From assembly GCA_011322445.1 (NCBI GenBank), contig DRMV01000036.1:1-64000 (forward strand): 64,000 nt of DNA, in the 5' to 3' direction. The notes under the pieces were generated by a model, which ran no database searches, was not told the origin of the DNA, and was given only the letters and a program-made list of their open reading frames with translations. This DNA comes from Chloroflexota bacterium (GTDB taxonomy: Bacteria; Chloroflexota; Anaerolineae; Anaerolineales; DRMV01). This document shows positions 17,651 to 19,849 of the stretch, piece by piece (positions within the stretch are counted from its first letter, which is position 1; each line of letters opens with the position of its first letter). Made by a program: the position numbers and the translations under genes.

Positions 17651-19849
17651 TCAGAGTCCAGAGTGCATGGGGGCGACCACCACCCGAAAACCGCCGTCCC
17701 AGAGCCCGTTGAGCGGGTCGTACCAGAGGCGGACGGCGGCACGGGCGCCCCCGCGACCGCTGAAGAAGGAGCCGCCGCGCAGAACACGGGCCATATCACC
17801 AGGGGCTTCCAGGTTCTCGCGCCCGTCTTGTGGGTCATACGGATATTCCTTGAACAAACTGCGCGTCCATTCCCAGACGTTGCCGCTCATATCGGCGCAG
17901 CCGTAGGGCGAATCGCCCTGCGGGGAAAACTGCCCCACAGGGGTTGTATCCCCAATGCCCGCTTCTCCTGAGTTGCACAACCCCTCCCGCCATTCGTTCC
18001 CCCACGGCCACTCGTTGCCGAATTCGTCGCGGGCGGCCTTCTCCCATTCGGCTTCCGAGGGCAGGGCGAAGCGGTAGCCCTCCGGCAGGTCGACGGCGAA
18101 GGTCTCGTTCAGCCACCGGATATACGCCAGCGCATTGTACCAGGAAACATAGACAACAGGATGTTTTTCTTTGTCTTTTGGAAATTCATGTTCGGGCTTG
18201 AAGCGAGCAAAATCGGCGTTGGTGACCGGAAAACGGCCTATGTAGTAGTCGTAGTCCAGGTTCAGGGTGTGCTGGGGGCACTCGTTACTCTCTGCCAACA
18301 CATTATCTTCCGTGCTGCCCATCAAAAACGGGCCTTTGGGCACCCGCACAAAGGGCATGCCGGCAAAGGTCAGGCCGCGGGCGGCTTTGCCTTCTGCCAT
18401 ACCTTTCCCTGTGCCGCGACGCGCCCCGCCTGTGATGCGCGGCGGTTTGGCTTCTTCGCCCGCCGCGGCGGCTTCCCCTGCCGCGGGCTGCGGCAAAGCC
18501 GAGAGGTGCACCAAAGCATCCAGCATCTCAGCATTGAAAGCCTCTGTAAAGACCGCATCGCGCAGCACGCGCCGGAAGCGCCAGTCGTCGTATTCACCAA
18601 ACTGGCGGTTCAGGCGGTCGCGGTCTTCGTCGTCTTCCCAGGCTTCCCGCGCCCAGCGCAGGGCTTCCTGCACGAACTTGAAACGCAGGGCGGGGTCATC
18701 CAGCCGCTCGCGCACCCGGTGCACGAAAGCCGCCGGCGCCACCCGCAGCAGCACCTGCCAAGTGTTGAAGTCCTGCCGCGTGAAGCCTTCCTCTTTGCCG
18801 CTGCTTTGCAGCATGGCCCAGGCCAGGTTGAGGTCGTTGACAAAGGTCTTCACCTTGCGGGGGTTGAGGGCGGCGCCGGTCACCAGCAGCCGCCAGGTGT
18901 CGCCTAAGGCCTCTTCCGCCGCGGGGTAGGCGCGGATGAGGTCTTGCATGGTATCGGGCGTGGCGGGCGGCAGGTGGAAGCGCAACTGGATGATTTTTCC
19001 TAGGTAGTCGCGCGCTTCCCCTTCGCTGACCCCGGCCTGGGCATACTGCTTTGCCACCGCCTGCTGCAGCACATCGGCATCGGCGCCGAGGTAGAACACA
19101 CAGCCCTCTTTATCCAGAAAGAGTTTGACGGCTTCCAGCACCTGAATCATTTTGGAAGGCAGGCAGCGGTCCAAATCGTCAATGAAAACCACCAGCAGGC
19201 CGTTTTTGGGGTCAATGCGCCGCGCCAGCGGGTCGCGGTGCACCCAGGCAGCCAGCAGGCGGTCAAAGGCCTCATCAAACAAATCCAAAATGGCGGTTTT
19301 CTGCGCCAGCGGGGGCTGCTGCGGGGTGCCGGTGCTGAGTTGCAGCCCGGCGTCGCCCAGTTTGAGGGAAAACCAGCCCAGGACGGTGTTCACCACATCG
19401 CGGCGGGGGTAGGTGGGGTCAAAGACTTTGGCCGCGGCTTTGGAAAACCAGTCATCGGCGGCCATTTCCTGCAAAATGCGCCGGATGAGCGCCACCAGCA
19501 GGGCGTCTTCGTCGTTGTACTTCCAGGCGTTGAACCACACCGTGCGGCAGGGGCGGAAGACCTTTTCGGGCGTTTCACCCGAGGCGGCAATTTCCATCAG
19601 GTCGGGTTTGGAATGGTCGTAGAGCACGGTGGTTTCGTCCAGCAGGCGTTTGATGCGCCGCAGGAGGGTGGTTTTGCCGCTGCCCCACGGCCCGCTGATG
19701 CCGATGGTGAGGGGCGTGGGGGTGCGGCGGTCGGCGGCCAGCCGCGCCAGGGTTATGGCGAAATCGTCAAAGTTGAACAGCGCCTCGTCGTCGTTCCTCA
19801 ACGGCCAGTCGTGCAGGATGTTGGGCGTGACTTTGCGTTTTTTGGTCAT
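17651..19849 (-). CDS. KAP-family P-loop NTPase fused to an FGE-sulfatase (C-type-lectin-like) domain
   Basis: 732 residues. The KAP NTPase (about 15-450) has Walker A GPWGSGKT at 53-60, [10 protein letters not shown] near 104-113 and Walker B [16 protein letters not shown] near 218-233. An Ala/Gly/Lys-rich linker (about 452-492) leads to an FGE-sulfatase domain (about 494-730) with [33 protein letters not shown] and [14 protein letters not shown]. The closing block [18 protein letters not shown]...GGFRVV aligns with the FGE active-site region but has Ala where the catalytic cysteines belong. It is therefore unlikely to make formylglycine and more likely binds ligand. The layout matches NTPase-linked variable proteins of diversity-generating retroelements. 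KAP NTPases are usually membrane- or defence-associated; no transmembrane insert is obvious. Confidence 0.88.
   Translation of the reverse strand: [732 protein letters not shown]

Follow-up and report, generated by a model that had tools for sequence, protein, structure and literature searches.

Our analysis of a 64,000-nucleotide stretch of DNA (hereafter the window) from a genome of the Anaerolineae (G000) revealed a gene whose C-terminus is very probably a genuine variable repeat (VR) of a diversity-generating retroelement (DGR), borne by a putative NTPase-coupled receptor that is either orphaned or served remotely. This putative DGR target (17651..19849, minus strand; 732 aa) fuses a KAP family P-loop NTPase domain (residues 29-341; 18827..19765, minus strand; Pfam KAP_NTPase, E = 3e-38) to an FGE-sulfatase/C-type-lectin domain (residues 500-724; 17678..18352, minus strand; Pfam FGE-sulfatase, E = 3e-43). 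The VR occupies the last ~115 coding bases (17676..17789, minus strand), as delimited by its match to a template repeat (TR) in the same-genus genome G001. A Walker A motif and a Walker-B-like VVFIDDLD can be read in the KAP domain, and the FGE domain is the sole one detected genome-wide. The open reading frame and its Pfam architecture bore out the original prediction of an FGE-fold C-terminus with a RGGSFF...GGFRVV ending. Its proposal of a DGR-type variable region on a KAP-NTPase is likewise supported, by the match to the G001 template, a downstream hairpin, and DGR targets of the same KAP-NTPase-FGE architecture elsewhere in the Anaerolineales.

The template belongs to a full DGR on contig C83 of G001 (L038), consisting of an FGE target, an Avd that scores above both the NCBIfam and Pfam cut-offs, the TR (1172-1304), a reverse transcriptase (RT) with the DGR-type motifs IGNLTSQ and YVDD, and then a NACHT-type protein. 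In the G001 VR, 17 adenines of its own TR are changed, along with 2 sites of other kinds. A second VR on another contig of this genome (C130; L172 1-270) is followed by the same type of hairpin with no adjoining Avd or RT, and represents a remote target.

Relative to the G001 TR, the window VR was changed at 25 of 31 template adenines and at 9 of the remaining 89 sites (p = 5e-13), and this adenine-concentrated match was found only with the template of the same-genus relative. Because of the mismatches at non-adenine sites, the G001 TR is to be regarded as a relative of the source template and not as the source. Conservation of the FGE scaffold reduces non-adenine differences anyway, and a codon test corrects for that only in part; by this test, the window VR fits adenine-only change at 16 of the 17 adenine-bearing TR codons. 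The single misfit (CAG to CGC) is common to three other VRs of the family (G006:C33, G006:C64, and G011), and therefore reflects a template difference. Among 92 same-length FGE-type C-termini from the loci examined, a fit of 16 of 17 was otherwise found only in the G001 VR and the three other same-family VRs. The original prediction had remarked that many exposed codons end in C, which is the case, and had considered this weak evidence given the high GC content. However, the chance-match product calculated from the gene's own codon usage was ~10^-10.8 for 17 compatible adenine-containing codons (one of them a GTA in the 3' scaffold), implying that high GC content alone does not account for the C-ending codons; together with the codon fit, this makes the evidence stronger than had been supposed. 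A lack of adenine-biased differences among paralogues had been named as an argument against a DGR origin; the related repeats do differ from one another in an adenine-biased manner. The window VR retains its adenine-codon pattern without decay, with all 17 codons accounted for and an intact reading frame.

The FGE domain was modelled with AlphaFold at a pLDDT of 95.6, and the model places the VR in a C-type lectin fold. Its top structural matches, tied at Z 27.5, were PvdO and TvpA (2y3c), the DGR variable protein of Treponema denticola, while FGE enzymes matched at Z ~24-25. The predicted fold is thus about equally similar to FGE enzymes and to DGR proteins, and a RGGSF...GFRVV ending is common in the FGE family; both observations would be consistent with an ordinary FGE-like domain of no DGR history, for which this ending is simply the family norm. 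Such a reading is highly improbable in view of the adenine-specific match to the same-genus TR and the 16/17 codon fit, and neither the DGR-type hairpin nor the DGR targets among homologues of the same architecture would be expected from it. Alignment to the bacterial FGE 6s07 further indicated that the two active-site cysteines of formylglycine-generating enzymes are absent from the window protein: the first is replaced by Ser, at an AAC codon of the template, and the position of the second lies inside a 3-residue deletion. FGE catalysis by the window protein therefore appears very unlikely from this alignment. The original prediction was right that the catalytic cysteines are missing, although it had read both positions as Ala.

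Additional support for a DGR target came from the sequence downstream of the VR, where a hairpin of DGR type with a 9-bp stem (CTGGGGGGC-ATA-GCCCCCCAG; 17572..17592, minus strand) was identified. Short CTCTGAA-type repeats lie between the VR/stop and the hairpin (17627..17656, minus strand), as in relatives, and the stem is identical to those downstream of the G001 VR and of the VR on contig C137 of G037. Across DGR loci, a GC-rich hairpin of at least 8 bp occurred within 150 nt downstream of 31/78 VRs, compared with 8 of the 78 TRs and 2.4% of stretches chosen at random, and the window gene has such a GC-rich hairpin downstream of its VR. In the BPP-1 phage DGR, such a hairpin is required for efficient homing (PMC3240598), and by analogy the window hairpin is a putative homing element.

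The post-VR spacer (17539..17648, minus strand) is 87% identical to a stretch of G003:C82 that lies between a VR remnant and the start of an Avd-like gene, and the similarity stops ~14 nt short of where G003 has its Avd start codon. This end point may be the trace of a lost cassette, or the target may simply be remote; relatives show both arrangements. The same-genus genome G003 itself contains a decaying DGR locus (L171 1-770), in which a broken DGR target is followed by a hairpin and by an Avd-like start with a lost frame. After the spacer, the window continues into a dispersed genus-wide repeat (17345-17466; TGTCATTGCGAGCCCCGAAGGGG...), with many copies in same-genus genomes and 40 matches scored in G004.

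Targets of the same architecture were found with their DGR machinery in several relatives. A scan with the RT profile yielded 80 loci, mostly from Anaerolineae, which together with five DGR loci from relatives gave a set of 85, and adenine-biased TR/VR pairs were present in 67 of these. Targets combining KAP and FGE domains with an adjoining RT and TR occurred at L117, L118, and L076. The first of these, from Anaerolineales, has a full-length identity of 44% to the window protein and shows 16 adenine changes and 0 others; the second, from Levilinea saccharolytica, has 19 adenine changes and 0 others. At L056, a KAP-FGE gene adjoins a TR on a contig that stops 57 nt past that repeat.

None of the machinery was detected in the window genome. 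Searches of the 53-contig, 96%-complete G000 assembly with PF00078, the G001 RT, and the DGR-RT profile A1 gave no RT; no Avd was found by PF22296, which scores above its cut-off in G001; and no TR was present, the best non-self match to the VR being 30 bases (E = 0.06). As originally predicted, the window has neither an RT nor a TR. Within the window, tblastn matches to RT or Avd were at chance level only, and these candidate remnants were rejected; no TR-like pattern was found in viral contigs. The absence of a DGR RT from the genome had been put forward as evidence against a DGR-type region, and no such RT was detected; the suggested A-rich near-copy of the VR is missing from the gene's own genome, whereas an adenine-biased template exists in same-genus G001. 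Given the lack of an RT in G000, the window gene is a DGR target and not a DGR. With the RT-Avd-TR cassette neither adjoining the gene nor in the assembly, the target would be either orphaned, with a frozen receptor, or remote. These two possibilities are of nearly equal weight, and are subdivisions of the preferred explanation rather than alternatives to a DGR origin.

In the first case, the machinery would have been lost from the lineage, leaving the VR as a frozen receptor under ordinary selection; we consider the probability of this to be somewhat below even. It would be consistent with the 96%-complete assembly in which RT, Avd, and TR are all absent, and with the broken target and frameless Avd-like start of G003. 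Strong VR matches to the G001 TR were present in five genomes of the family (G000, G001, G002, G006, and G011), but an RT was found only in G001, despite completeness of 100% for G002 and 94% for G006. An Avd-like frame adjoining the VR in G006:C64 was rejected as an Avd, with a score under the Pfam cut-off. However, the undecayed adenine-codon pattern of the window VR speaks against an orphan, and DGR cassettes in the 80-locus scan were often on very short contigs, which binning can miss.

In the second case, which comes close to an even chance, an RT-TR cassette carried by a mobile element, or by a contig missed in assembly, would diversify the gene in trans. Loss by assembly does happen, since in G037, a genome with no RT found, the contig carrying a KAP-FGE VR and TR breaks off 57 nt past that TR; furthermore, diversification in trans has been described as likely in Thiohalocapsa PB-PSB1 (PMC10907252). 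In the same-family genome G008, where no RT was found, a 7.9-kb contig has 29 ambiguous bases, all of them within a 303-bp stretch covering a VR (L166 3141-3443), and they are enriched at template A-sites (10/30 vs 7/87, p = 0.002). Population polymorphism is a possible explanation for these ambiguities, and would favor a remote mutator, but they may also represent collapsed paralogues or strains. Diversification in trans must further be set against a well-assembled G000 genome in which the TR is nowhere to be found.

The genomic neighborhood indicated that the KAP-FGE gene is accessory. The sister genome G002 (93% DNA identity) has a gap of ~0.8 kb between folP and sir2, with no KAP-FGE gene there; the gap (L164 11070-11875) holds instead a pair that we named from sequence reading as a HigB/HigA-like toxin-antitoxin system. 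Absence of the KAP-FGE gene from the same place in the sister identifies it as optional cargo, a status that would be in line with a presumed role in defence. The neighboring Sir2 gene (20006-20782) was rejected as a partner, since G002 has a 99% identical Sir2 by folP without the KAP gene. Farther along, uvrA (20965-24504, minus strand) contains an in-frame insert (22461-23134) that encodes a DUF559 domain (E = 9e-27), with inverted repeats, long and GC-rich, starting from positions 22491 and 23036; this insert is absent from the uvrA of sister G002.

A DGR origin of the VR suggests the following mode of operation. A template RNA like that of G001 would be reverse-transcribed with random substitution at adenines, and the resulting cDNA would replace the end of the KAP-FGE gene, with landing signals probably provided by the repeat's 3' end together with the hairpin beyond it. 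In the FGE/C-type-lectin domain, the randomised residues would then form a ligand-binding face, and binding would be relayed by the KAP NTPase, the protein most likely acting as a sensor of intracellular invasion by phage. The product of the KAP-FGE gene is thus a putative anti-phage sensor.

We tentatively propose that in this Anaerolineae family, receptors made by DGRs outlive their mutator or travel apart from it, such that VR-bearing NTPase sensors persist without RT and TR, either frozen or awaiting a mutator in trans. Some of these sensors would keep intact hairpins of the homing type. The present case illustrates how a DGR target can be confirmed from a single sequence and the template of a sister species, and that the absence of an RT from a fragmented assembly does not exclude such a target. 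It also raises the question of whether DGR receptors persist in frozen form once their mutator has been lost, or are served in trans.

Comparison with known systems places the window gene among several families with shared components. Its KAP domain has partial similarity to the NTPases QatA and PifA of phage defence, and falls far under the curated NCBIfam cut-off for QatA. The FGE/SUMF1 formylglycine-generating enzymes share the fold of its C-terminal domain, and the window protein differs from these enzymes in lacking both catalytic cysteines. TvpA has the same FGE-type C-type lectin fold with a C-terminal VR; sequence identity is 26%, and the matched TvpA structure is without a KAP NTPase. 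A GC-rich hairpin is similarly found downstream of the VR in the BPP-1 target site (Guo et al. 2011, PMC3240598), although the window hairpin has a 3-nt ATA loop and lies ~84 nt from the VR end, whereas in the phage set the loop is a 4-nt GRNA and the distance 4-34 nt. The window gene also resembles the DGR-diversified NTPase-CLec proteins that Dore et al. (2024, PMC10907252) described from multicellular bacteria as putative antigen sensors. Unlike those sensors, the window gene resides in a genome whose whole assembly is without RT, Avd, and TR; incomplete or remote loci do occur among them, and filamentous Chloroflexota are among their hosts. As in the window gene, they combine a central NTPase with a C-terminal C-type lectin/FGE domain that carries the VR, and their clade 5D includes KAP NTPase targets. 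Judged by domain architecture, a KAP NTPase fused to a VR-bearing CLec, the window gene is a candidate member of this clade. KAP-NTPase targets of DGRs are therefore already known (PMC10907252), and the window gene adds one in the Anaerolineae.
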